NCBI GenBank assembly: GCA_948470475.1
Contig: OX419337.1
Location: 40,213,255 to 40,277,254 of the forward strand
Direction of reading: 5' to 3'
DNA from: Galaxea fascicularis
Taxonomy: Eukaryota > Cnidaria > Anthozoa > Scleractinia > Euphylliidae
DNA: 64,000 nt
The position numbers and the translations under genes are program-made. Below, piece by piece: positions 1 through 62,146 of this stretch (its first letter is position 1; each line of letters opens with the position of its first letter). The notes below the pieces were generated by a model, which saw nothing but the letters and a program-made list of their open reading frames with translations, was not told the DNA's origin and made no database searches.

Positions 1-3000
1 AACCAAGAGCCAAACTTCAGTTCACATTGCTGTTCGTCAAACGGAAAGTCACGGACGTCAAAATGACACGATGTCTTGAAGACAAATGGCGCAGCCCAGT
101 AGCAATGGCCATCATGGTGGACACGAATGCGGGTCTTCACGTTGTCCATTCTACCATCAAATTCTTCAAAAACACTGCAAAAACGATGAGTGAAATAATG
201 ATTATGTAATCGCGGAAGATTGAACATACGAACCGAAGCTGCGATTGAGTAATAACTCACTTGTTATATAAAACAAGGTCGGGTTGCCATATTTTCGAGG
301 AGTCAACAGTTATTTGCTCCAGTCCTCCATACTCCGCAGGCTCCCAGTTAACGAGCTGATTGGTCCATTCCTGTAACACGCAAAGAGAAGCATGTATACT
401 AATTATTGTTTAGATGCAGAGAATGGAGTCAGGCAAAGCTACGGCTTTGAGAATGTACTGCTCTGGCAGAGGTGTTTTAAGTGGGACCATTCGAGTAGAT
501 AATTTACAGACATACTAGGGGAGACTTGTTTGTACAAGATCCTTTGCGTTGTACATAGAATTGCTGCAAATCATTGCGATATCAGAAGATGGCAGCGCAT
601 GCTTCCAGAAGCTAAAGACGTTTCTATTGTTTCACTGGCTTTATCCTAGAAAAGGTTGAGTCAGCCTTGCACATCTCTTCAGCGAAAGTATGCATTCGTG
701 TGCGGGGCGCTCGCTAGGTACAAACATACTGTACCAGTCGGACTCATTGAACTGCATGAGTTCTGTAGAGAGGAAACGACATCAATCGAAATGTTGTTTG
801 TCCTTACCTGTCTCAACCAGATGTCTGTCGTGAGAATTTGGTATTTTTCGTCCTGGAAAAGTAAGCAGTTACTGAGAGTGGGTTTTATACCCTTCGTACC
901 CAGCCCTCTCTTGTTCGCTTTTGAATTATTTGCGACCTTTATTTTGAGTAAACCGTCTGAAAACAATGTTCGCTTGCAGATTCATTTCACCGAGAGTTCA
1001 CCTGCAGGATAACGCTATAGAAAGGGCTGAGAACGAGATCTTAGTCTTGGTCCCAGGACTCACCTGTCTGACCCAAACACTACTACAGAGAATTTGATAT
1101 TTTTCGTCCTGGAAGGAAAATTAGAACAATGAGGTGGTTAAAATGGGTTAAATTAGAAGTATTAGCGTCACTTGTCATCATTCATTATAGTCTCAGGTTT
1201 ACGTCCCCTTTGTCTCATCAACCAAACTGCAAACAAACAAAAGGCAGACAACTGCCACATCAACGAAAATGACAACAACAACAACAACAACAGAAACCTT
1301 ATTACTGTCATTCACCAAACACGCAAACGTTCTGCCGGTTTGGCTACTGAAAGCCCAATGCACACGTCTCCGTTTGGTCAGTCCTAAAATGAGTTACGTC
1401 ACGGGTTTTGAAAGAGGACTTGAATGATTCAGCTTTGTTTAGCCTCTCTGGCTTTGAATGGATTGAAACTTAAAAACATTGAGCCCCGTGTTTCAAATTC
1501 TCCTCTTGTTTTCTAGAAAAAGAAGGCTAAATACAGATTATGGATCGCTCAGTCACCTTTGAGAAAATGTCTTGGTATCTTTCATTAGGTGTTGTAGGAG
1601 CATTTTGGATACAAGAAAAGGTACTTGCTTTTAAATTGATCACCGTCTCACCCTCGTGACGTAGCACGTTCGTGTTACTGTAACCAGTAGAAGGTTACTA
1701 GTTTACTTGAATGGCGGCAATCAACCCCTTTCAGACACAAGTACGTTGAAATATAGCCGGCGAGCAAAGCCCTCCCAGGGGTAGGGGGTGGGGAAGGGAC
1801 GGTAGGAACCCCCATCCCCCGAGAGAGCTTGCTCGCAGGCTACTTTTAAATCACGAACTACAATAGATATCATAAATAAAACTCCCACAGAGTGTCATGT
1901 CTTCAGGTGGCAATACAGCAACTGGCATTTCCCTTGGGTGTTGACGTACAGATCACATTCTCTTCAAGTGTGGGTAGGGAATGGCAAAAGTCTGCACGCA
2001 AGCTACGCTTTTACCATTCGGCTAGAAATTTACAAGATTTTATTAAAATCAGGGGAATTACTAAAGCCAAGCGACCTATTTCCATCTTCAGATTGACTGC
2101 AGATGTATCACGTTTGGAGCAGTGCGACAAAGGAAAAAGGTTGCATGATTGTGACAAATCGATGGCCAAATATGCTTTCTGTCGCCAACGCAGGTTCATA
2201 CATGTGTGGGATCGAGGGCATACGTTCATAACCATTCCCTTCATCTGAAATCATTGTTCTTCAGTTCAGTGATCCGTAAATAGATACTATTCTTGTATTT
2301 ATAGAATGGTATTTTAAGGAATTATCTTAGTACAAACAAATGGCCCTAATAACATTCAAAACAAGAATTATCAATTGGTTGAAGGCTAAAAAAAAGGTCC
2401 TCTTTCTACATATGAAAGAAAAAAAGACCTCAACAGGCTCATCGTTTCACGAAATGGAAATATTATAGTTCCGTTTTCCTGGGTGGATTTTGCAAATACA
2501 TAACATTCGTCTCCAATTTCGACTAAAAAATTCCGGAAATAGCGAATATCCGCCGGAAATATTAGGAAAGCAGCCATGATGTGGGAACGTGAACAGGTTG
2601 AAATGTACTGTTTATACGGTTAGTTCGTCAGTGTCTTGCTTTAGCCGCGGATTATTTACCGCGCATATAGATGTCCGTTTAATTCGTTTGTCCCACAGAA
2701 GGAATGAAGCGGCAAAAGGAATGAAGAGAAGAGCATGTCACCAATTAACATTGAACAGAGAGAGGGAGGGCAATGAATTGCACTGCTTGTGCGTAGTTCA
2801 CTGTTTCAGTGATGCTTGCCTTGTTTCTCCATTTGAGATTGCGGTTGCCAATCCAGAGCAATACACGACTTACTGATTGTGCTAATAAATTCGCTTGAAA
2901 AAACTTGCCGAGCAGACACGACCGAGACAACAGAGGAGTACTGAAGGAAGCGTTTTTTTCTGGAATTTTTTTCGTATCTTATTTCAGTTCTGACATGTTA

Positions 3001-5734
3001 ACTTTCCTCCGGTAGTGGGAACGCTGTATTAACGCCGGTCAAAATCGCCGATTCAATCACTATATAGGCAATCGGTAAAATTTTTCTTAACTCTCCAGTA
3101 AATATTTTATTTTATCGCTCAAGAGGGTTTATCTTATTTGATAAAGTTATTTGCTCCTAAAACAAACAGTGAAGGGTTTCAAATCGGTGTATGGTATCGA
3201 AGAATACTTTTGCCGCTCGTTTATACACAGGACAACAGCGAACCTACCTTGATGCCAAAACGTCTAATAAGACTTATTATGTACTCGTTTTTTTAAGCAC
3301 ACTTTAATATCTGTTCTAATGTATGTTTGTAATTTTACGATAAATTTGCCTTGTTTTTGCCAACATCTAAAATGGGTAATCCGCTTCCGGACGTGACGTA
3401 CACATGTAATCTAATTTTAGTTCCCCTCGGCTGAGTCACCACACAACGCGACAAACTGCTGTGCTGCAGAATACCCTGTCACACACCATTACCAATGAAT
3501 AACAACACTGTCCATTCTTCGATTCCCGGGTATTAACGGCTAAATTTGTGCTTTTTGTAATATACGGAATAAGTTTTTGGCTATTTTTTTTTTGTTTTAT
3601 CTGTAAAATGCGTTTGTTGCAAAATTCGCCTTCGCCCAAGTGATGTTCGTGACGCGATGATATGCCTTGTTCCTGCATATAATTTTTTTATTTTCCTTGT
3701 CGGTTTCAGACTAGTGCTCTAACCCGCTAATCATTATTTTGACTTTGCTTATGAATTTGAGAAGTGTTTTGTGTTTTCATGCGACAAAAAAAATAACAGC
3801 CATGTCATGACCTAGTGAGTGTTTGTCGTTGTTTAGCGTCAAATGTTATTAAACGCAGCAGGCTATTGAAATCGGTCGCTGAACTGGTGAAGTGGTAGCA
3901 CAGTTTATCGGTTCACGCGAACTGTTCAGGGAAAACTATTTGATAAAGATAAATAGCGGCGAATTTAGTTGAGATCCAATTGACACAACAGTTTCAAAAA
4001 CAAAATCGTTTCAATTTTCTCCGCACCCCAAACGAGGAACAACGAGAAAGAGGAAGAACACGTAAATTAAAAAAGCATTTTTGGGCTTTTGATGAAACTG
4101 AGAGAACCCGTTCGTGATGCCGATTTTCTCTAGGCCAGATAGCTGACATAAGTACTCCGGTAGTGCAGTTCAGTGGCAATTTGCTCGTGAGTATTACAGA
4201 AACACTACAGCTGTTCGAAACTTGAAAGACGATCAGCACATGAAAAATGGATGCAAACCAAATTACCGTTGAACGTCAACGGAACAGCAGGTGTTTTAAA
4301 AACAATTAAAAATTATAGATGCTGTAGCTTGCTCGTAAATAATGACATTTTCACTGACTCGGGTAATATTTAAAAATTTATAGAATTAAGCTCAACGCAT
4401 TCAAATAAAATTCAAGAGCTTCCAGTATTAACCTCACTGAAAAGCTCCGTATTACTAATGTTTACATCCCATGAAATCTAACTATTCCTTCTTCAGTTTG
4501 CTTCGAAACTCACATGAAGAAGACAAATTCAAGAGGGTGAGGAAGTGTTAAGCCCCAGGGCGTCTGTTGATTAAAGCGGGCAATACTAAAAGTTGTTTAA
4601 CGAGCTAAAACAGACAAATGGCAAACAAGTGACACGAAACCTGGATGACTGTTCTTGAGTCCTGCATTTGACATGAACGTTACGGCTGTGAAGAAAAAAG
4701 GCGATTCTCTCACTATGTTCAAATATCTACATGCGAATAGTCAGTCTTTCTTTGGTAGACGTTTATTTTAGAAATTAAAACAAACATTTGTCGTCGAGGT
4801 CAATACCAACCTCGCTCAGTGTTTCAGCGAAATATTCTATAGAGAAACTAAGAAACATGGCCGAAATTTGTCCAATATTTTGATGCTTTTGAATTGTATT
4901 TGTTTTAGTCAAAAGAAAATATGACATATTTGCTTAGTTTTCCATTAAGGTGTCGATGCCGAGTTCGATTTTATTCAACAAAGTTGTTATTAGTCCCGAG
5001 GCAATCTTTGGTATGTCGAATAATTTGTTCTTATATCAATGACGTTTACATCTGAGGTCTGATACAGTGAAAATTCTCTTTCGTGCCCTTTCAAATGAAG
5101 GTTGACGGGGATTAGATTCTCGTGGTACACCTAGTTCTCCCGTTTCCAGAATTATGACAAATCATTCAAGCATGAGCTAGATCGAGGAATGTTAGCAGAA
5201 TACAGGAAGTCATTTCCTGTTGAATCGCCATCGTGACTTGAAAAGTCCGCTAGCGAAATAAACCCGTAAAATGACATTATTTCAAAGTTATACCCAACTA
5301 TAAGACAATATAGGATGTTGCCGTTACCATTTCAATGACGCCATGGAAAGTAATATCAAGAGTTACGTTGACTGCTTCTAAAGAGTTGTTCACAGGTCGC
5401 ACGTTTGGGTTGGTGATTTCAGCAACTCGGTCTACCAACAGTTTCTCATGCGAGCCCGAGGCTCCTAAAGGAAGCAAAAAACACGAGTTAGGTTTACCAG
5501 CGAATAATCACGACAACTTTAACAGTAGCCACTTCAAACAACAAAATCATGTTGTCAAATCAAACGGAACGAAAACTGAAATAATAAATTGGTACAGACA
5601 GTCGGTAACGTTCTCTTTCGATTACCTTCGACGAAGTTTGTCCTGCCACAAAATTGGAGATCAGGCGCTAAGAGAATCCCAGTGGTGATGAAAATAATGA
5701 AGCACGAAAACTTTAAGGGTCCTGCTGCGGTCAT
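1..5734 (-). CDS. Nicotinic-acetylcholine-receptor-like Cys-loop channel subunit, N-terminal half (partial)
   Basis: Subunit of a pentameric ligand-gated channel in the plasma membrane. Coding exons, 5' to 3': 5734-5626 (signal peptide), 5464-5328, alternative 45-nt exon 1108-1064 or 852-808, 370-261 (110 nt), 174-1 (cut by the edge). All junctions have GT/AG and matching phases. The start is ATG at 5734, followed by a basic residue and a hydrophobic stretch typical of a signal peptide. Visible features: HEKLLVDR and NPNVRPV near the N terminus, loop D WLRQEW (W94), loop A WQPDLVLYN (125-133), and Cys170 and Cys184 with 13 residues between them (C-x5-R-D-F-P-F-D-E-Q-Q-C). The 45- and 110-nt exons match the conserved nAChR exon sizes. 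Potential N-glycosylation sites are NNS and NVT. Loops B and C and the membrane segments lie outside the window. Agonist and ion selectivity cannot be told. Confidence 0.93.
808..852 (-). CDS. Receptor exon 3b (45 nt, alternative loop D exon)
   Basis: Phase-0 exon between CTTTTCCAG and GTAAGG. It encodes DEKYQILTTDIWLRQ. It lies 211 bp downstream of exon 3a and differs from it by 13 of 45 bases, mostly in the codons around the loop D tryptophan. Its TTDIWLRQ is the form closer to typical nAChR subunits. Confidence 0.88.
1064..1108 (-). CDS. Receptor exon 3a (45 nt, alternative loop D exon)
   Basis: Phase-0 exon between TTCCTTCCAG and GTGAGT. It encodes DEKYQILCSSVWVRQ, the loop D segment of the receptor's ligand-binding face. 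It is the upstream member of a tandem exon pair and shares 10 of 15 residues with the copy at 808-852. Either copy keeps the frame into the 110-nt exon. Confidence 0.85.
1754..1842. mobile_element. Short MITE in receptor intron 2
   Basis: Imperfect terminal inverted repeats: left TAGCCGGCGAGCAAAGC; right end, read on the other strand, TAGCCTGCGAGCAAGC. Between them is a G/C-rich centre with runs of G and C. No coding content. The rest of intron 2 (1109-5327) shows no other recognisable feature. Confidence 0.55.
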
Positions 5735-37085: not shown

Positions 37086-37249
37086 TGTTTTGTACAATAA
37101 GTACTTCGAGCAAAACAATCAGAAATTTGATCGAAGTAATTGTCATTTAGCTCCCAGAAGGCGAGATACTGCCTTAGTCAAACTATCGCTGAAACTGAAA
37201 TTTGTTTGTAACATTCTCTTCAAATCAAATATCTCGAAGGGGCACAAAG

Positions 37250-37633
37250 ATGTCATCCGGCAACCTCGACTCTCTTCCTCCCGAAATCGTATTGCAAATA
37301 ATGTCTTTTTTAGACACTCAAAGTTTATGTCAAGCTTCACAGACTTGCAAAAGATGGCGCGATTTCATTTACAACACCGATCTTTTGTGGATAACGAAGT
37401 GTAAAACGCTGGATCAAGGTGAAGTCAAACGAGACATACAAGAAGCGGAAGAAGGCCGTTGGTGGCGAAATATTTTCATCAGAAACTATGGCGCTAATGC
37501 AATCAAAAAACGTTGGTTTGAAGGGAAATATCGGCATGTGAAATCACCGGATGAATTGCCAAAGAACCACTTTGGACCGATGAGCACGGAGACGTGGGGA
37601 TGTATTCTGGATGTTGTTCAAAATCTCACATAG
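37250..37633 (+). CDS. FBXO48: F-box only protein 48-like
   Basis: Complete 127-residue single-exon protein. F-box at residues 7-48: LDSLPPEIVLQIMSFLD, LCQASQTCKRW, then a W-containing end. F-box proteins link substrates to SKP1-CUL1 ubiquitin ligases. The remainder matches human FBXO48 in order: GRWWRNIFIRNY (human GYSWRVILLRNY), KKRWFEGKYRHVKSP, and TETWGCILD (human DTWGEILE). No separate substrate domain is present, as in the human protein (155 residues). The start is the first ATG in an open stretch beginning near 37202. It lies 165 bp after a LINE relic and 335 bp before another LINE. Confidence 0.88.
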   Translation: MSSGNLDSLPPEIVLQIMSFLDTQSLCQASQTCKRWRDFIYNTDLLWITKCKTLDQGEVKRDIQEAEEGRWWRNIFIRNYGANAIKKRWFEGKYRHVKSPDELPKNHFGPMSTETWGCILDVVQNLT

Positions 37634-37968
37634 AAACAACTTCAAATCCTATGATACGTGGCTCTTTGAAGGAAACGGTGCGTGAACACCAATGTGAGTT
37701 GTCCGTTTACTGTACCGTTCGTTTCAAACACAGATCTATCTACTGATTTCTGACTAACTTGAGGCAAGAAACAGGAAATCTCTAAGCTATGTCACGGTTC
37801 AGTTTTCACGATTCATGGTGAAGTGGGACAAGACGTCAGCCGGAAAATCGATCGATAGCAACAATAGGAAACAGCTGATTTCGCCCCCTGCCGAGTTCGT
37901 CCTCAAGAAATGATGGAAAGTGAACGTTTTAAAGAAGACTAGTTGTGAACTTTTGAATTTGATTTGCC

Positions 37969-39015
37969 ATGTGCCAAGTTTATTTTCAGTTGGACTCCTA
38001 CTTCACTGATCGGTACAATAGGGTGAAGTTGGGATCCACAGTGAGTGAGTGGGAGAGGGGGTCAAGGGGATGTCCACAGGGCTCCGCATTTGGACCATTG
38101 ATATGGAACATGTTCCAAAATGATCTGACATACAGTGTAAATTCTAATTCTAATATCAATATGTATGCAGACGACCACCAGTTCCATGCTGCAGGCAGTA
38201 ATGTTACTGAAGTGTATGATAAGTTAATAGCAAGTGCCGAATTAGCCTCCAGATGGTATAGATCGAATTTCTTAAAAGGGAACTATGACAAGTATCAGAC
38301 AATGACACTTGGGAATAAAAATAATGATATGGATAGTATTATAATTGATGACAATGAAGTTAAATCTACCAAGTGTTTAAAACTTCTTGGGGTATATATA
38401 GACAATAGGCTTCAATTTGATGAACACATTGCTAACATTTGTAAGAGGAGTAGCCAGCGTGTTGGAGTCCTGATGAGGCTCAGGAATATGATACCAACAG
38501 ACACCAAGCTGAAGTTGTTTAAGGCAGCCATTCTTCCTTATTTAACATACAGCCATCTTGTCTGGCATTTTTGTAGGGCGAGTGATACTAGAAAATTGGA
38601 ACGTATTCAAGAAAGGGCACTTAGGGCAGTTTACTGTGATAAGGGGAGTAGTTATGATAAATTATTAGACATGGCTAACCTAAGTACACTGCAGAACAGA
38701 AGACTACAGGATATAGCCATTCTTATGTATAAGGTAAAGAACAATTTATCTCCTAATTACATATGTAGCCTTTTTCAAATTCCACAACTTAAGTACACAC
38801 TGCGTAATAATGATTTTGGTATACCTAGATTTAATACTGTTACTTTTGGAAAACATTCGCTTAGATATATGGGACCCAAAATATGGGCAATTGTACCAAG
38901 AAATGTAAGAGAACTGACATCCATATCATCTTTTAAATGTAACATACGTAGAATAGACCTTGTTTCTAAATTGACTGATAGTAAATGTGAAAACTGCCTT
39001 TTATGTAAGACTTAG
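37969..39015 (+). CDS. Non-LTR retrotransposon reverse transcriptase, 5'-truncated
   Basis: 348-residue open frame without stops. It holds the second half of a LINE reverse transcriptase: RVKLGSTVSEW, GCPQGSAFGPLIWNMFQNDL, the YADD catalytic box, a thumb region with LKLLGVYIDNRLQFDEHI, and a tail with ILPYLTYSHLVWHFC and LERIQERALRAVY. The endonuclease and the N-terminal RT blocks are absent, so it is a 5'-truncated insertion. The 3' region (39016 to about 39175) has a long T run and AATAAA. The intact frame suggests a young copy. Confidence 0.9.
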   Translation: MCQVYFQLDSYFTDRYNRVKLGSTVSEWERGSRGCPQGSAFGPLIWNMFQNDLTYSVNSNSNINMYADDHQFHAAGSNVTEVYDKLIASAELASRWYRSNFLKGNYDKYQTMTLGNKNNDMDSIIIDDNEVKSTKCLKLLGVYIDNRLQFDEHIANICKRSSQRVGVLMRLRNMIPTDTKLKLFKAAILPYLTYSHLVWHFCRASDTRKLERIQERALRAVYCDKGSSYDKLLDMANLSTLQNRRLQDIAILMYKVKNNLSPNYICSLFQIPQLKYTLRNNDFGIPRFNTVTFGKHSLRYMGPKIWAIVPRNVRELTSISSFKCNIRRIDLVSKLTDSKCENCLLCKT

Positions 39016-47500: not shown

Positions 47501-50500
47501 TGGTTGCATCTCTGATATGCCTTAATGTGACTGTGCAATGCAGTTAAGAGTCATATAATGGTTAAAATTGGACTATGTGACTGTGTGATGCAGTTGTAGG
47601 CTATACCCACATTTCACCTGTACTCACCACAAGAGTCTCCAGTCGCTCAGTGGTTATGGCATCCATACTAGAGGGTCCAAAATAGGTTTGGCGGGATGCG
47701 GCTTAAAATCAAGGCGGGATGCAGTATACGAAAAATTTTAGGGGCGGGATACAGGATGAAACTTCCCTGGCGAGACCGGGATGCTTGTATTTTCGCAGGC
47801 GGGATGTGGGATGTTTAAAAAATTAATGGCGGGATGCGGGATGGAACATGTGAAAAAAGACCTTCAAAAACGGCCAAAAAACCTCTTTCAGCAAGATCTC
47901 TGTTGATAAAGGAAGTTTTATTTTGGTACACGGTGCTCAGTGGCGATCTGTCTACACTAAAATAAATACTTCATGATGCATCTGTCATTACACGGAGTGC
48001 AATTGGTTGGTGCTGGGACCCAATTTGACCCCAATTTGGATCAATTTGCGTGTACATTGGTGTTCGTGTTCGTCCATTTCCGGTGATCTAGGAAATCAAG
48101 GCGCGCAGATACTGATCTGACTGATACCTTGTTTTACAATGTGAAATGAGTCTGTAGTCTCTTAAAACAGCTTGCATTTTTTGACTTTTTTAAAGGTCAC
48201 TTTAACTCTTAAAATCTTTTAGTTATTTAAAGTTGAAAGTAGGGTATTATTGTACTGCGCGAATAGAATCTTGTTGCTTTGTCTTAGTGAAAACAAGACA
48301 GCATGCATAAAATAGACCAAATAATAACTATCTGCTTGTTAGACCATCGCTCAAAGATCGACAATATGAAACGCATGTCACGATAAAACAACAGATAGGA
48401 GATAGGACAAAGAGCTCATCAATATATATTTTATTTAGAATTATCTCCAAGGTTTGACTAGTTTACTTTATAGATTATAGAGGGCGGGGCGAGGTCGTTT
48501 CTGGGCATTATGGCGAAACCGCCAGTAGCCTCGGGCTCATCGGAGGCAGAAAAGGAAGAAGGTGATGTTATAAGTTGTGTAGCAATTTTTTATGAAAAGG
48601 GCGCAAGTGGAAATAATTACGTCCGGAAGGAAAAATTCCATGCTGTTTTACAGAAAGGCGAGAAAACTGTTAAGAAGATTCGGGAATAACAGTCAATTAA
48701 TTTTGTTTTTTAATTTCTGTATACCTTAAGTGGCCCTAGATGAAGCGAAGCTCACGTAAGTAATTCTCTGAAAACATATTAAAATTAAATTAATTATTAA
48801 AATCTGAATTCCCATTGAGCTAATCAGTCACAGTTAGTTAAAATGGGTATAAAATTGACTTTCTCATTTACTATAACGATGAATACTTACGGAGTTTTAT
48901 GGCGGTATCGGGATGGAGGCTGTCAATATGGCGGGATGGCGGGATAAGGCCGAAAAGGGTGGCGGGATGCGGGATTGCAAAACCCTATTTTGGACCCTCA
49001 TACTAGATCTCAGAAGGTCATGGGTTCAAATCCCATTAGAGTCTCAGATATTTTTCTACGAGCTCCCATTTGAAGATGCAAAAATATATTTCATGTATTT
49101 CTCACATGACTCGCGTGGGTGGATGTTTTTCATAGATATATAAAATTAAGTTTGATAAGTTAAGTGACATCGAACCTGTCTCTCCTGCAACGATGGGGTA
49201 ATTTTGAAAATGTTCCATCAACTGTTCAGCATCAGAAAATTCTCCGACTCCAAAGACAAACTTTCCTTGATCACACCTCAATGAAAAGTGCTTTACAGAT
49301 TCAAGGCTTCTGTAGAAATACACTCAATTACATTTTTTTTACAACAAAGGAAAAGCAAAATTAGTAAGTGCTGTTTACTTTATGGTGCAACCACTTGAAC
49401 CGGGCCACTCCGAACAAAGTCAACCAATCAAAGCGTTAATTGAGAACAAAGGATGGCTTCTTTTTTTGTAAACGGGCCAATGAAACTCAAGAAAGCAAAC
49501 AACAGTTTAACAACAAAAATTGGAAACCCAACAAAGTTGCGTAAGGTTGCAGACGTCTCAGGAAACTTGGTCAATTTTTGATTGGTTCGTTTCGATCCTA
49601 TCTTTTGAAACCTTTTTTCGGCTTTTCAACGGTTTCAAACGGTTTGCAGAGTTTTTCATTTTCTACATATTGCACTAAATCTCCCCCGAGTTTTGATCGA
49701 GGTTGCGTTTCTCTCATTTTGGGCATAGACGAGTTGTTTTGATCATAGTACCTAAAAATGTTTCGCACAAAGTGTCGACTACTTTTTACTTCATTTGCAA
49801 TCAACTGTGGACTCATTCCATCGTGGTGAAGGTCTAAAACATGCTCTCGTAGCAGTTGCGAAAGTCGACGACCATTATCATATATTCCCCCCCACTTGAT
49901 TCAACCTCAATTGAACGCGGTGGGTAAAGGCCATCGTCAAGATCTTATAATTTACCGAAGCCGTTTGAAACCGTTGAAAAGCCGAAAAAAGGTTTCAAAA
50001 GATAGGATCGAAACGAACCAATCAAAAATTGACCAAGTTTCCTGAGACGTCTGCAACCTTACGCAACTTTGTTGGGTTTCCAATTTTTGTTGTTAAACCG
50101 TTGTTTGCTTTCTTGAGTTTCATTGGCCCGTTTACAAAAAAAGAAGCCATCCTTTGTTCTCAATTAACGCTTTGATTGGTTAACTTTGTTCGGAGTGGCC
50201 CGGTTCAAGTGGTCGCACTGTAATTGTGTGGCTCGACACAAATATTAAGGACATGAATGCAGAGACTGTGCATGTCCACAGTCAGTTTCCCTAATCACTT
50301 TTCAGAAGAAGTAATGAGGTCAACTGGGGATAAAAGTACACTATTTATGCCCAGAAGCCTTTAATACAGCCAGACGACCAGCTCAGTGCTCTAGGTTCAT
50401 GCTGAGAAGTTAAGCTCCAGAAAATGTTACATTTGAGTGAGTCAATCTTATAGTTCTAGGTCAAATGACATATCATAAAGGTGATCTGTTAATTAAGTAA

Positions 50501-54299: not shown

Positions 54300-55340
54300 A
54301 TGGAAACATATGACGATAGCAGTGATTCGCTCGAAAATCATGACTCATTTATTGTGAGCCAAATCACGGAACAGTTTGAGCAGTTACGGAGACTTCGAGA
54401 GGACTTGCAAAATGCCTTTGTCAGATGGATACCGATAAGACGGCGCACACGGGAACAGTTAGAGGAACTGGCCACAAAACTACATGAGCACCACAGGAAT
54501 GTGAACATCACAACTATCACGGGAGCGTCCATGGGTACCGTGGGAGGGATCCTGTCAGTAGCTGGCCTTATTGCTGCGCCTTTCACATTTGGGGCCGGGA
54601 TTGTTGTGTCACTGGTTGGAGCCGGGATTGGTGGCGCGGGAGGTCTCGTTATGTCAGGGTCCAAAGTAGTTGAGATGATCCTGGAAAAATTAGGCCTCAA
54701 AGAGGTGCAGACGGCAATTGAAGAGGATCACGAAGCTTCCAGAAATCTTACATTGTTACTAGACTCCATGGAAAATTTCATCTCTCAGCTGACACAGTTC
54801 CTTAAGCCACTACACGATGACGCAAGGCTCATCAGGGAATTAGAAGGGAGTGGATTCGATTTCCTTCGCGATCGGATATTCTTTGAAGACATCGGCTCGT
54901 CAACAGAAGAGAAAGTAGATTTCGGCGCTAGGTTCTTTCGAGCGGCAACGTCTGCTGCTACAATATCAGCTTCAGCAGCTGCCACTGTGGGTGTGGTGGC
55001 GCGAAGCGCGGCTCTCGCGGGTACGCGCGCGGCACATATCGCTGGGTCTGTGATTGGTGCCGCTCTCCTGCCACTGGATATTACGCTACTCGTTAAATCA
55101 TCTTTGGAGCTGCATCGCGGATCCACTTCTACAGCAGTGGAAGATATCAGGAAGATTCTGAGTGACCTAGAATGCCCTGATGAAGATGAAGTTGAAGGTT
55201 TAGTCGAGAGTTTTATCGACGAGAAGTTTACTGAAGCGTATAACAAGATTGAGAATAACACAACAGGAGAAAACCAGGCTGATGATGATGACGATGATGA
55301 CGACAGTATTGATAGCCAAAGAGAGAACGAGAATAAATAA
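54300..55340 (+). CDS. Apolipoprotein L-like protein
   Basis: 346-residue protein in one exon, from ATG 54300. ApoL-family proteins are membrane-inserting helical proteins. Visible: an N-terminal amphipathic part (QITEQFEQLRRLREDL), the ApoL signature helical hairpin at residues 72-120 (Gly/Ala/Ser-rich, with GGILSVAGLIAAPFTFGAG and GAGIGGAGG), a middle helical part, and a second Ala-rich hydrophobic stretch (AATSAATISASAAATVG...IGAALLPLDITLLV). The tail has eight consecutive Asp, then SIDSQRENENK. No signal peptide is seen, unlike human APOL1. A strong acceptor (ATTTTGCAG at 54274-54282) just before the ATG suggests an upstream, probably non-coding exon. Family assignment is firm; function is not known. 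Confidence 0.8.
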   Translation: METYDDSSDSLENHDSFIVSQITEQFEQLRRLREDLQNAFVRWIPIRRRTREQLEELATKLHEHHRNVNITTITGASMGTVGGILSVAGLIAAPFTFGAGIVVSLVGAGIGGAGGLVMSGSKVVEMILEKLGLKEVQTAIEEDHEASRNLTLLLDSMENFISQLTQFLKPLHDDARLIRELEGSGFDFLRDRIFFEDIGSSTEEKVDFGARFFRAATSAATISASAAATVGVVARSAALAGTRAAHIAGSVIGAALLPLDITLLVKSSLELHRGSTSTAVEDIRKILSDLECPDEDEVEGLVESFIDEKFTEAYNKIENNTTGENQADDDDDDDDSIDSQRENENK

Positions 55341-56950: not shown

Positions 56951-59900
56951 TTACAGTTCAAAATCACTGTCTTCGTCTTCTGACTCTGAATTGTCAAGCT
57001 GCAAAACAAGATGCAGGAAAAGTAACATGAATAATTTGTCAAAAAATTCACGTTTTAAAGGGTGGAATGCATGGCCATACAGCCAAAAAATGTACTGTGG
57101 CGCAAAAATATATACTGTGTCGGACAAAAGGGGCGAAAACCGCGATAGCTAGCCTTAAGGAAAATTGAATTGTTTTTAGAGAGGAAAGCTTTTCGATCAC
57201 GACCCATAGACGCAGGGAGATCTATTCTTCACCTTCATTTTCATTTGCAGACACGTACCAAAAGGGTTACCGGTTTTATCACAACTTCACCACAAAGAGC
57301 TGCTAACTACTTAAGTATAAAAATGTTGTTACTAAGTACAGTATTCGGCTTTCTAGAAATAACACTAATACACGTTAAAACACATTTTCACAAACGGTAT
57401 TTGAAGTTACCTCCTCAAGTTCTTCCTCGGTGTAGAACTTTGTCAACAATTTACGCAGAGGAATCAGGCAGATTATGAAGAAAGGGAAAGATGGTGCGAG
57501 CGATGTTAACTTGACCGCCACCAAGAACGCCAAAGCCAGTATTTGAATTATTGTGTAGACGTGTATCTTTCTGGTTTTCACCTAAACACAGCAAAAACAA
57601 GAGGCTAAAATAAGCCTTAACTCAGGTCTGCAAAAATGGTTCCCTCGATTAGCGCTAAACGAAAGAAGAGACACGTCTGTCCTTAGGCGATACATCTCTT
57701 CAGCTTTCTACCAATCACAGAACAGCTTGCCACGTAGCAAACCACACAAGAGGGGAAGATTGCTTAGAGCGACTTTTCGTTCGAAAAGGTGTGTGCGTAA
57801 GTGGTAACACCCCCACCCAGCAAGACCATGGTAGTTTGCCCGTGCTTCATAACTTACCTTCCTCACGTATCCGACGTCAGGGTGATGTTTAGCGGGCATG
57901 AACATCATAACAAATCTGTCCATCATTTGCAGTCCATACATTGAACAGATACCAAGATACAACAAAACACCGAAAAAAATTGGAATGGGAATCAGATGCA
58001 GGCCTGGCGCTAGCAGAATGGAGAGACCTGAAACAGGGAAAGTAGAAATATAGCGTTAAGTAGGGGAGTTGCATTTATTTCTCCATAAGGCAAATGTATA
58101 AGGGAAAGTACATAATAAGAGAAAAAGGGCAAAAGGTGCTTAAAACAAATAACAGGCCTAGCAGGAGCAGAATGATCAGGCGTGAAATGAGAGGATAGAC
58201 AAAATGTGAGAAGAATGAAAATATACGCTGGCGTTAGCAGGAAGGACGAATGCTCATTTCTCCTCCCAGTCAAATATCTATGAATGCCGTGACTCTAACT
58301 ATTATTTGAGGTAATTATTTAAAACAGTTCGAAATTCACTCAGAGATCCTACTTTCCTGGCATTATGGGGCAGACTGTTCCAGAGGACCGCACCACTGTA
58401 GTAAAAAGTATCACGAAACTAGTTTGTGCCTAGTAAAGGAACTGCAAGTTTCAGAATCAAGGAGTGAGTTTGGCGTGACATCATTACGGTTCACAAATTT
58501 CGAAAGTAAATACTCCGGGGCAAGGCCATGATGGATTTATAGACAACCCGGAAAGCTTTTTGTAAATTATGCTGAGTACTAAGATTTCTCCATCCCAGAG
58601 ACTCGAAAAGAAAAGAAGCATCAGTATCAAAGCTAGAGTAGGTCAACAGCCTGGCTACACGATTTTGGAGCCTTTGTAGCTTACTGGAAAGCTTTATGGA
58701 ACAATTTCCCCAGACGACACTACAACAATCGAAGTGTTGTTGAATTGAAATATTGTAAATGCAAAGAAGGGTCGACGGGGGTACAAACTGTCTCACCCGT
58801 TTAAAGGGCTGCAATACTGGATGCGATCTTTTTGGCCAATTTATCGATACGATCGTTCCAGGTAAGATTTTCATCTATGATAACTCCTAGAGATTTACTT
58901 ATAGAAACTTGGTTAACGGGAGTTCCATTAATTTACAAAGGCTGGAGATGAAGTCAAGGGGACAAACTTTTGCCTCGAGCCGATAAACATGAATTAGGTC
59001 TCAACCATATTCAGCGTAAGTTTGTTTGCAAGTGGCCACTTTCTGATGTTTTCCAAAATATAATCTTGAATGGCATTAATATCGACACCAGCACAAGTAT
59101 GGAAATGAGAGACAATTCGGTAGGTCATTTATGTATAACAAGAACAAGAACAAGTCTCGACAATCCCACAGTTAAAAAGGGGTTTGTGAATAGTCTAGGA
59201 TTCAACCTATACTCACCTGTTAGGATGTGTATAATGATATTTGTTACCCGCTGCTCCTTCACTTCAAGAAGACGCGGTTTCTCTCCAGGTGCGTGTGATG
59301 TGCTCCATATGGACAGTGCATTCACATGAGAAGCTGAGCGTACGGTGTCTGCGCACATCCATGGCAAGCCCAACAGTGAACACCCAAACGCCAAGACTCC
59401 CACAACAACCAGATCCAAATTGTAACCAGGACCCTTTCGTAATTTATGCTCTTTCTTGCTCAAAAGAACACCAGTCATTTCAGTTTCCATGAACAGCAAG
59501 ATGCCAACGAAAATGGCGGGTATGATTGCAGCAAAGATCCAGGGCATTGACATGCCGGTTTTCATCCCCCCGGGGTTAATGAACCAGTCCCTGTCAGGAT
59601 GTGTCGGATGGAAGCCATAGATCAGTGTATTGTTAATGGAGACATGCGGAGTAATAACTTTGTCTCCCAGAGCAAAATCAAGAACAGCCATGCAAACCAT
59701 AGCTATCACCACGCTGGAATCGCTGACGAGTCTTCTGGACTGCAACAAAGCAATTCAAAACATTGTTTAGAACACCGTTTTATTTCTCATATGAAAGCTA
59801 CTGAGCAGCAACTTTCCTGTGGTGCTGTTTTTTATGTGAAAAAACTGATTCTTGCGTTACATGTAAGTCCATTGACATGAACATTTAGTGTCTAAAGAAC

Positions 59901-62146
59901 TCTGCAGCAAAAAACCAACCACGAAAAAATTGAACAAACCCGTTTTCCAAAAAAGTGGCTTGTCCGAAACTTGCGCATGTAGAAGGCCACGAAGAAGGTT
60001 CCAAGAACCAATATGGTGGATAGCAAAGCCGTGTTAGGCTCTCCCTTCACTTCATCCCCGTAAGATTTCCCGGACCCTTTACGGCTTAGAGGATTCTTCT
60101 TGTATAGCTGCAAAACAATTTTTTCCATAATTAAATCTCAGAACGCAATTACCGACGGAAATTCCTGTAAATTCTACACAGTATTCCTACTTTAGTAGTT
60201 TTGTAGCTGCATTACTACTACAGTTGAGCTTTAAACTGAGGTAAGTTACTTAGTTGTGTAACAGCTTTAGTATTGCCCATTTCTTAAAAGCTTTCAGAAT
60301 TTAACCAATAAGTGGGCTTTTATCGTATCTTTAGGCTACCCCTTCCTTAGTGAATAATTCTGGAATAATTCAAAGGGTTTCTAATATTTCCGAAACTCTG
60401 TCCTCTCCCTTACCTACTCTCGTACATTTCCCAACCATAAACTCTCTAGTTCCCATAATTCTCACCTTAATCAGCAATGCAATTGGTTCATAAATAAAGA
60501 TTGCAGATATGAGTAGTTCAAAGATGTCCTCAGTGAAGCGGGTGAAATATTTGATCAAGAAGCAGCCTTCCAAGGCAACCACACCAAACAGAATGATCAT
60601 AACCCAGAAACCAATCCAACAGCGCCACGTGAGGAACTCCACGTTATAATCCTTACAAAACTGAAAGGTAATGCAGAATAAAGGTACTAAAATGAGAACT
60701 TCTAATCCAAGTCAAGGTACACTACAGTACTTCAGTACATGAAATACCTTATGAGGGAGGGGGATGTTACCCTCACATCAGCCAGCAATCATCTACAAAA
60801 ATTTGAAATGGATGAAAAGCAAAGATTATAGCAAAACTCTTTGGTACTGGTCTGTCGTAAAAACTGAAAGGAGCAAGGAAATGCTAAGTGAGACTGGGAA
60901 GAGACACCTAAGAATGTGCTACGAACACTCACAAGAATCCAAGCTTTGGAGGCCTTGCACCATGAAAATTTGAACTTACAGCGATTCGTGGCTTCTCCGT
61001 AAATTGCAAGGCAAAAGAATGAATACTACACAGTATAATTTAAAGTTACGCCAGCTAAGTAAAGCAGTACTTTACATGAACGTGCGGCGTTCCTGCCCAC
61101 ACTTTTATATGTAAACACCACTTTTTATGACAGTTAAATTAAACACTTTATGTTCTGTTTTGCGGAAGAACGTGGTGCAAAATAAAGAAATTATCCTTCG
61201 AGATCAGCCCAATTCTTCTCACCGTGTGCCATCTCATTTCCCTTTGTTGTACTCAATAGGAGTTTAATTCTGATACTTACATCATAAATACTCTGTTCAA
61301 AGACCAATATGGGACCAGTGGCTCCTATGATCATCATCGGCTGTCCAGCAAACAGTCCCAAGAGTATGCTGCAAGCAGAGGCTGCAACAATCACTTCTGT
61401 CAGCCCCAGCCAGCCATCTGTCTTGTCTTCAAGGAGACCACCAAATGCAATATTTGTGGCGAACAAAGCAAAGTACAGAAAGAGAGATGCAAACAGACTA
61501 TGTAGATTGAATCCATCTCTGAAATCGCTGAGGTAGAACTTTCCACGGCGCTTGATGTCTTGGAATAGACCACCAAAAAACGTGCCTGTTCGCAGCAAGG
61601 CAGAGTCTCCCTCTGAGTGAGAAGATGATACTAGAGGAAGTAAAGCAAGTAGTACTTAAATCAAATTGTTGTTTTGTCAGTTATAAAAAGAAACAACATA
61701 TGCGACACTTGACGACTTTAATATTCAAATGATTTTAAATTCTTCAAGCGTAGTTGAAACATTAACCATCAACGAGTTAAAAAGAAAAGTCGTTACAAAT
61801 TGATGGCAATCTGAAGGTGACATAGGGCAGATGACTAAATATTACGGACTACAGGCTTAAAATAGCACCACATCGCTCAGCTGGGTCAAAACTTGGATGA
61901 AATTTATCTCTCCAATTTGTTGGGGTGACGCATCACTGCTGATGAGAAGGTAAACACCATAGTCTTACCAGCCTTGGCCATCTTTCTCCTGAGTGCTATG
62001 GCTCTGCTTTGCGCAATGAGGATGGGTAACAGCACATTTCTATCCCAGTTGCCTGGTGGCAATACTACAGTATCCTCGAGAAACTCATTTATAGCTGTTA
62101 GGAGATGCTCACGAGAATCTGCACGGTATGCAACATCATGAAAAGC
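56951..62146 (-). CDS. SLC4-family bicarbonate transporter, C-terminal part (partial)
   Basis: Plasma-membrane transporter of bicarbonate with Cl or Na. Exons: 62146-61969, 61630-61281, 60660-60466, 60107-59940, 59739-59217, 58027-57858, 57581-57411, 56998-56951 (stop). Phases match at every junction; about 599 residues. The first exon is the end of the cytoplasmic domain (AFHDVAYRADSREHLL, FLEDTVVLPPGNWDR). Then the membrane domain: GTFFGGLFQDIKRR, YLSDFRDG, FGGLLEDKTDG, GATGPILVFE, WIGFWVMIILF, FTRFTEDIFELLISAIFIYE, KKEHKLRKGPGYNLDL, LGLPWMCADTVRSASHVNAL, APGEKPRLLEVKEQRVT, MPAKHHPDVGYVRKVKT. It ends in the acidic tail ESEDEDSDFEL. Residues resemble both AE and NBC/NDCBE groups, so the substrate subtype is open. 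The N-terminal exons lie beyond 64000. Confidence 0.95.
58285..58985 (-). pseudogene. LINE fragment in SLC4 intron
   Basis: The open part reads KRVRQFVPPSTLLCIYNISI, then HFDCCSVVWGNCSIKLSSKL, LQRLQNRVARLL and ESLGWRNLSTQ. After a break comes YYSGAVLWNSLPHNARKVGS. These are the end blocks of a CR1/jockey-like reverse transcriptase ORF, 5'-truncated and frameshifted. Confidence 0.8.

Follow-up and report, generated by a model that had tools for sequence, protein, structure and literature searches.

Our analysis suggests, with good confidence, that in a nicotinic receptor gene of the stony coral Galaxea fascicularis an ancient 45-nt loop D exon was duplicated in tandem, and that either the upstream copy of exon 3 (here 3a) or the downstream copy (3b) is spliced between exons 2 and 4, changing the receptor. 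Judging from the sequence, the exon pair is real and very probably functional; its alternative use, its exclusivity and its functional effect in this gene are what we infer from it.

The 5’ part of this alpha-10-like gene occupies the left end (1-5734, minus strand) of the 64,000-nt stretch of DNA that was analysed (the window), where six exons are readable. The coding part of exon 1 (5626..5734, 109 nt) is an open frame from ATG to a GTAATC donor; its start resembles a signal peptide and it ends in phase 1. Exon 2 (5328..5464, 137 nt) ends in phase 0 with ...FHGVIEM, and an exon-2 ORF in the protein database (P0075) has 100% identity with it across the aligned part. There follow, on the same strand, 3a (1064..1108, 45 nt, DEKYQILCSSVWVRQ) with loop D version 1, an intron of 211 nt (853..1063) that contains GTCCTGG at 1059-1053, and 3b (808..852, 45 nt, DEKYQILTTDIWLRQ) with loop D version 2. 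Exon 4 (261..370, 110 nt, minus strand) covers the loop A region, WQPDLVLYN, and the start of exon 5 (1..174, minus strand), with the loop E region, a C-x13-C Cys-loop and loop B (FGSW), runs off the window. The introns flanking the exon 3 copies thus measure 4219, 211 and 437 nt. The sequence-only reading of this DNA had claimed two phase-0 exons of 45 nt lying 211 apart, and its coordinates, sizes, phase and spacing all hold, as does its point that the frame is shared whichever exon is used and that using both would add 15 residues in frame: with 3a, 3b, both or neither, the translation stays open, without a stop, as far into exon 5 as can be read.

The readable translation, 191 residues long, matches the Pfam neurotransmitter-gated ligand-binding domain (PF02931, Neur_chan_LBD) with an E of 1.9e-44 when 3b is used and 2.7e-42 when 3a is used. 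The best PDB match of the window protein is alpha-7 (E 1.3e-36), and W94 aligns with the Trp at precursor residue 77 of that chain with no gap over exon 3; this Trp we take to be the loop D Trp, W55 in mature numbering, which bears out the earlier claim that the two exons swap loop D of a nicotinic-type receptor. The translation also contains CHFDVRDFPFDEQQC, WQPDLVLYN and FGSW; the Cys-loop with its C-x13-C spacing, the loop A Tyr (in WQPDLVLYN) and the loop B Trp (in FGSW) are thus present. Two database proteins, P0015 and P0016, are identical to the window over VFEEFDG...FGSW and include a full last exon of the exon-5 kind. Both have the loop C Cys pair (YDCCPDE), and P0015 has the membrane domain PF02932 (E 2.5e-31); loop C and the membrane helices of the window gene itself lie beyond the window. 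The nearest named proteins are neuronal acetylcholine receptor subunits of alpha-10-like type from Acropora, Montipora, Oculina, Pocillopora and sea anemones. By these similarities the window gene most likely encodes an alpha-type nicotinic receptor subunit of a stony coral, and its readable part is intact.

Of the 45 bases of exon 3, 13 differ between the two copies (32 identical), as do 5 of the 15 residues, at codons 8-11 and 13; the copies have in common the Trp, the Arg two residues past it and the final Gln. By the same alignment, that Arg would sit in both versions at the loop D position numbered R81 in beta1 of aphids, R79 in beta1 of whitefly and Q79 in alpha7 of chicken (PMC10906874). 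Both exons begin with GAC and end with CAG: 3a lies between CCTTCCAG on its acceptor side and the donor GTGAGT, and 3b between TTTTCCAG and GTAAGG. On a PWM built on the exon 3 splice sites of 19 paralogue exons, the 3a donor scored 13.6 (tied top of 22) and its acceptor 16.9 (5th of 22), and those of 3b scored 9.7 (20th of 22) and 10.6 (19th of 22), respectively. Both exons look usable, as had been proposed, with splice sites present, frames open and each loop D type carried by proteins of relatives, that of 3a in annotated ones. The fear voiced in the sequence-only reading, that 3a might be a dead or cryptic duplicate, was not upheld, and we consider this explanation highly improbable because the 3a frame is intact, its donor and acceptor outscore those of 3b and its motif type occurs in relatives. 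More improbable still is an assembly artefact that set two alleles or paralogues side by side, since the 45-nt exon is the only part clearly repeated, its copies differ to the extent just given, and there is no near paralogue: among the matches listed in the genome, none other exceeds 55% identity.

To place the pair within its gene family, open AG-45 nt-GT/GC exons were scored on our own exon-3 residue pattern. Both 3a and 3b scored 27, and the maximum among 503 control candidates, taken from the antisense strand of 20 paralogue loci of 10 kb each, was 14, so chance is excluded for both copies. For the genome (416.6 Mb) 70 matches are listed and the counts are lower bounds; at least 31 places are exon-4-like, one of them the window gene, and of the others 20 were scanned across 10 kb and 10 across just 1.3 kb. 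The scan detects 45-nt phase-0 exons only; genes matched through exon 5 alone were left out of it, and one 1.3-kb locus holds N. One exon 3 candidate above 14 was found at 26 of the 30 paralogue loci and none at the other four (L026, at 14, and L043, L047 and L051, lower), and a second copy at none of the 30 (20 over 10 kb, 10 over 1.3 kb only). Within this 30-locus scan, a 45-nt phase-0 exon 3 is thus the rule of the family and is doubled only in the window gene. The exon 3 candidates at L045, L048 and L052 are without the loop D Trp (DDKNQLLITRAEIRE, DEKHLRIALDVRIKM and DNKAQVITTDTVIKQ, respectively), and it is possible that these loci encode coral subunits with an altered or lost complementary site.

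Proteins of relatives carry loop D motifs of both kinds. From 66 related proteins 28 were fetched, and exon 3 was compared in 13 of them (P0001-P0003 and P0005-P0014); P0004 and the distant P0017-P0020 were left out of this comparison, and the other fetched proteins begin past exon 3. Nine of the 13 are from corals or are placed with them, four of TTD type and five of SSV type. Carriers of the 3b-type motif, TTD[I/T]W[L/V], are Acropora muricata P0001, A. digitifera P0002, Montipora capricornis P0003 and P0006 (a 523-aa spliced ORF from a 2063-base contig, with TTDTWV), and the 3a-type motif, [S/T]SSVW[VI], is found in Oculina P0005, Montipora foliosa P0007 and P0009, Pocillopora P0008 and A. 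muricata P0010. The remaining four, from anemones, have TTSIWV, SSSVWI (the 3a-type motif of Nematostella P0012), TVNMWL and SLNMWI. Over all 15 residues 3b is identical to M. capricornis P0003, and 3a departs from SSSVWVRQ, the sequence shared by Acropora P0010 and Montipora P0009, by a single Cys/Ser; the 3a Cys is replaced by Ser or Thr in all six SSV-type proteins compared. Vertebrate alpha-7, with TTNIWL, is close to the TTD type. Each relative’s protein shows one loop D type, and the two-exon layout is seen in one genome only. P0001-P0003 and P0005 bear the source label ‘isoform X3’ or ‘X2’, so these genes have several annotated transcripts.

Short-protein searches for transcript pieces gave 8 and 20 proteins, none across exon 3; they covered exons 1-2 plus intron, or else exon 2 or exon 5 plus flanking sequence; coral DNA of a relative was found neither in viral contigs nor in prokaryote genomes. 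Two of the fetched proteins are unusual as gene models. A. digitifera P0002 starts like P0001, ends like P0010 and looks like a fused model, which suggests tandem paralogues in Acropora. Actinostola P0004 holds two receptors in one protein: in the first half exon 2 (VIDM) joins exon 4 (EWTN) directly, without exon 3, and the second half has DEKFQILKTSIWVRQ.

The distribution of these motifs on gene trees bears on how old the pair is. When nine coral sequences were placed on a tree with exon 3 left out, P0006 (TTD) paired with Pocillopora (TSS), and the Acroporidae fell into a TTD clade of P0001 and P0003 (support 91/94) and a sister SSS clade of P0007, P0009 and P0010 (100/98). The window gene, which has both types and was placed through the C-terminal part of P0015, adjoins all Acroporidae, also with anemones included (95/100); a tree from the window part alone has no resolution among corals. 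P0002 was omitted from the second tree for its fused-model look, and if it is included the Acropora rows group otherwise. Forcing the three TTD rows together was rejected (AU p 3.3e-6), a grouping that was picked after an earlier tree had been seen. Exon type is therefore at odds with the gene tree, suggesting that the pair is old and shared. The simplest reading is one old gene with both exons, of which each database protein shows one, and the pair would then be older than the split between Oculina/Pocillopora and Acropora/Montipora. The isoform labels on P0001, P0002, P0003 and P0005 fit a single gene with both exons; no such label is attached to the SSS-type proteins in the other Acroporid clade, so that gene copy may retain one exon.

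A young duplication confined to one lineage would account for the same motifs if the SSV and TTD types of other corals arose separately, with one exon 3 per gene, and the tree leaves room for this, as two state changes suffice for the loop D types on it and TTD may have arisen more than once, the similar TTNIWL of vertebrate alpha-7 pointing the same way. The exons themselves point both ways. Codons 1-7 are identical at 20 of 21 bases, which counts against an old pair because old silent sites should differ more; among the paralogues the same residue has the same codon in 239 of 528 cases, giving a P of about 0.04 for codon sharing as high as this (≥6 of 7). The second half, in contrast, differs at 12 of 24 bases (Fisher p 0.0009 between halves, with the cut picked post hoc), and the surrounding introns add little sign of recent copying, the 150-nt upstream flanks being no more alike than shuffles (56% of 200 as good) and the 150-nt downstream flanks giving a weak match (4.5% of shuffles as good). 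The near-identical codons could be due to local gene conversion or to a constraint that splicing places on the first half, and either conversion or such a constraint at the RNA level suits an old pair better, as do the matches of 3b to P0003 and, but for its one Cys, of 3a to P0009 and P0010. We regard a young duplication as rather unlikely.

If the two exons are used one at a time, something must choose between them. Steric exclusion between the 3a donor and the 3b branch point was considered and rejected, as every branch-like site is separated from that donor by over 100 nt; upstream of the 3b acceptor there is an AG just 17 nt away, with branch-like sites at -10 (yTnAy) and -17 (nTrAy) and the next yTnAy at -97. 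U2/U12 incompatibility was ruled out, there being no U12-type donor, and so was frameshift decay of wrong forms, every combination being open as far as readable. Frame rules enforce no exclusivity, because both or neither also read through, and the devices that remain are RNA pairing or protein regulators. Duplexes of the last 400 nt of intron 2 with the other two introns were no better than shuffled sequence (81% and 95% of 100 shuffles as good), and for the remainder of intron 2 there was a windowed scan with no shuffle control. The duplex of the 3a-3b intron with the 3b-4 intron was equalled by 3% of shuffles. The local fold of 808-1108 has a z of -2.03 (3 of 100 shuffles as good). Pairing of the 3a donor region with the 3b acceptor came to 8.8 expected pairs vs 2.1 (matched by 3% of 164 intron shuffles). 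The 3b acceptor is less open than in 95% of shuffles, and the 3a donor (0.51 vs 0.36) and 3a acceptor (0.62 vs 0.57) are more open than the shuffle mean.

A short element could link these sites. Within the 5.8 kb of sense strand GTCCTGG has a single occurrence, which begins five bases into the intron that follows 3a (1059), and its complement CCAGGAC has two occurrences only, at the exon 3 acceptors (1112 and 856). Pairing with the 3b acceptor would mask 3b, and pairing with the 3a acceptor would loop 3a out. That GTCCTGG and CCAG/GAC (the slash marking the exon boundary) might act in this way as an exon selector is an idea only, formed once the predicted fold had been seen, and the folding and pairing figures above are likewise post hoc.

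Since all four forms are in frame and no classical exclusivity device was found, the exons could be alternative without excluding each other. Forms with both copies (longer by 15 residues) and forms with neither would then be common and would yield subunits that are non-functional or dominant-negative. Excerpts of PMC1919356 describe double inclusion in silkworm alpha6, and excerpts of PMC5111602 exon skipping in Tuta, Bombyx and Tribolium. The former, however, also quote tandem duplicated exons as mostly exclusive (99.4%), and the candidate RNA pairing of the 3b acceptor with the donor side of 3a speaks against non-exclusive use, which we think unlikely.

A more far-reaching proposal joins age and selection: the pair would be an ancient coral switch that predates the Oculina/Pocillopora vs Acropora/Montipora split, with its forms divided between the Acroporidae duplicates and the choice made by one GUCCUGG element. 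One Acroporidae copy (P0001, P0003) would have received TTDIWL and the other (P0007, P0009, P0010) SSSVWV, and the window’s species would retain the undivided state. We find this proposal doubtful as a whole. A possible parallel for the division, with one Acroporidae duplicate having TTD and the other SSS, comes from SKI7/HBS1 and PTC7 in fungi, whose splice forms were later divided between duplicate genes (PMC3597508 for SKI7/HBS1). If true, the pair may show splice forms becoming separate genes in stony corals.

In the preferred reading, with 3a or 3b spliced in, the subunit would retain its acetylcholine-facing (principal) residues and the loop D Trp and Arg in either form. Loop D contributes to the agonist pocket from the complementary side, and subunits with 3a or 3b would accordingly keep their own principal face and present a neighbour with a different wall, so that two complementary faces, T-T-D-I-W-L or C-S-S-V-W-V, would be on offer. 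The clearest swap would put Ser in place of Asp at the second residue ahead of the Trp, with loss of a negative charge beside the site; strand geometry suggests that this position is on the same strand face as the Trp. The isoforms would be expected to differ in agonist affinity, gating or the choice of partner subunit, and skipping both 3a and 3b would remove loop D. In human alpha7, exon 3 is essential for function, as stated in the available text of PMC5111602.

The closest known system is insect alpha6, whose exons 3a and 3b, of 45 bp and 15 residues each, encode loop D and are mutually exclusive (excerpts of PMC5111602 and PMC1919356). The sequence-only reading had mentioned alternative exons in nicotinic genes of some insects; such exons exist, and the likeness was understated, since these same excerpts describe the same loop D exon pair in alpha6. 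Like the coral gene, alpha6 of Tuta, Drosophila, Bombyx and Tribolium has a tandem exon 3 of 45 bp that covers loop D and leaves the frame intact if skipped, and in both cases the intron between the copies is the shortest of those around them (899 bp in Tuta alpha6 in the passages of PMC5111602 available; 211 in the coral). The excerpted parts of that paper give 50% 3a, 33% 3b and 17% neither among alpha6 clones of one moth strain, and report transcripts with neither exon from two moths and a beetle; in silkworm, both-exon transcripts increase from pupa to adult (PMC1919356, excerpts). Unlike insect alpha6, the coral gene has anthozoan alpha-10-like proteins as its nearest relatives, and the origins in coral and insects are apparently independent, because the 30 other loci show at most one copy and the honeybee has a single one (PMC1919356, in the part available).

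Other Cys-loop receptors vary the same region. In insect RDL and GluCl, exon 3 alternates near loop D (available text of PMC2064938); these are GABA-gated and glutamate-gated chloride channels, whereas the coral gene is nicotinic. Among tandem alternative exons of other channels, those of the NALCN pore have a single exon 15 form in cnidarians, according to excerpts of PMC3557258. The nAChR genes of Nematostella, with P0012 carrying SSSVWI, and of other anthozoans belong to the same large receptor family; none of the terms ‘splic’, ‘isoform’, ‘exon’ and ‘loop D’ appears in the main text of a paper on Nematostella nAChRs (PMC6825365), and the available portion of a survey that includes A. digitifera nAChRs (PMC6896357) has no passage on alternative exons. 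Among the matches listed in the open-licence PMC literature there is no report of a cnidarian loop D exon pair. As the principle is known from insects, what is new here is the phylum and the apparently separate origin. If the pair is used as proposed, insects and corals independently reached the same tiny exon to vary the receptor pocket, and cnidarian cholinergic signalling gains two receptor versions from a single gene. The 45-nt phase-0 loop D exon would then be an evolutionary hot spot, because its duplication is frame-safe and alters one side of the ligand site only.

Elsewhere in the window, two ORFs of an SLC4-type bicarbonate transporter lie on the minus strand at 59128-59754 and 61194-61655 (PF00955, E 6.1e-55 and 1.6e-36, respectively), and a 345-aa open-frame stretch that contains the Apolipoprotein L domain (PF05461, E 7.5e-24) lies on the plus strand at 54303-55340. 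A 100-aa minus-strand ORF at 49601-49900 has a partial paired-box match (PF00292, E 2.9e-6) and could be a Pax exon or part of a Tc1-type transposase. Finally, the plus strand at 37217-39012 holds an F-box ORF (PF12937, E 4.2e-17) followed by a retroelement reverse-transcriptase ORF (PF00078, E 3.8e-9).
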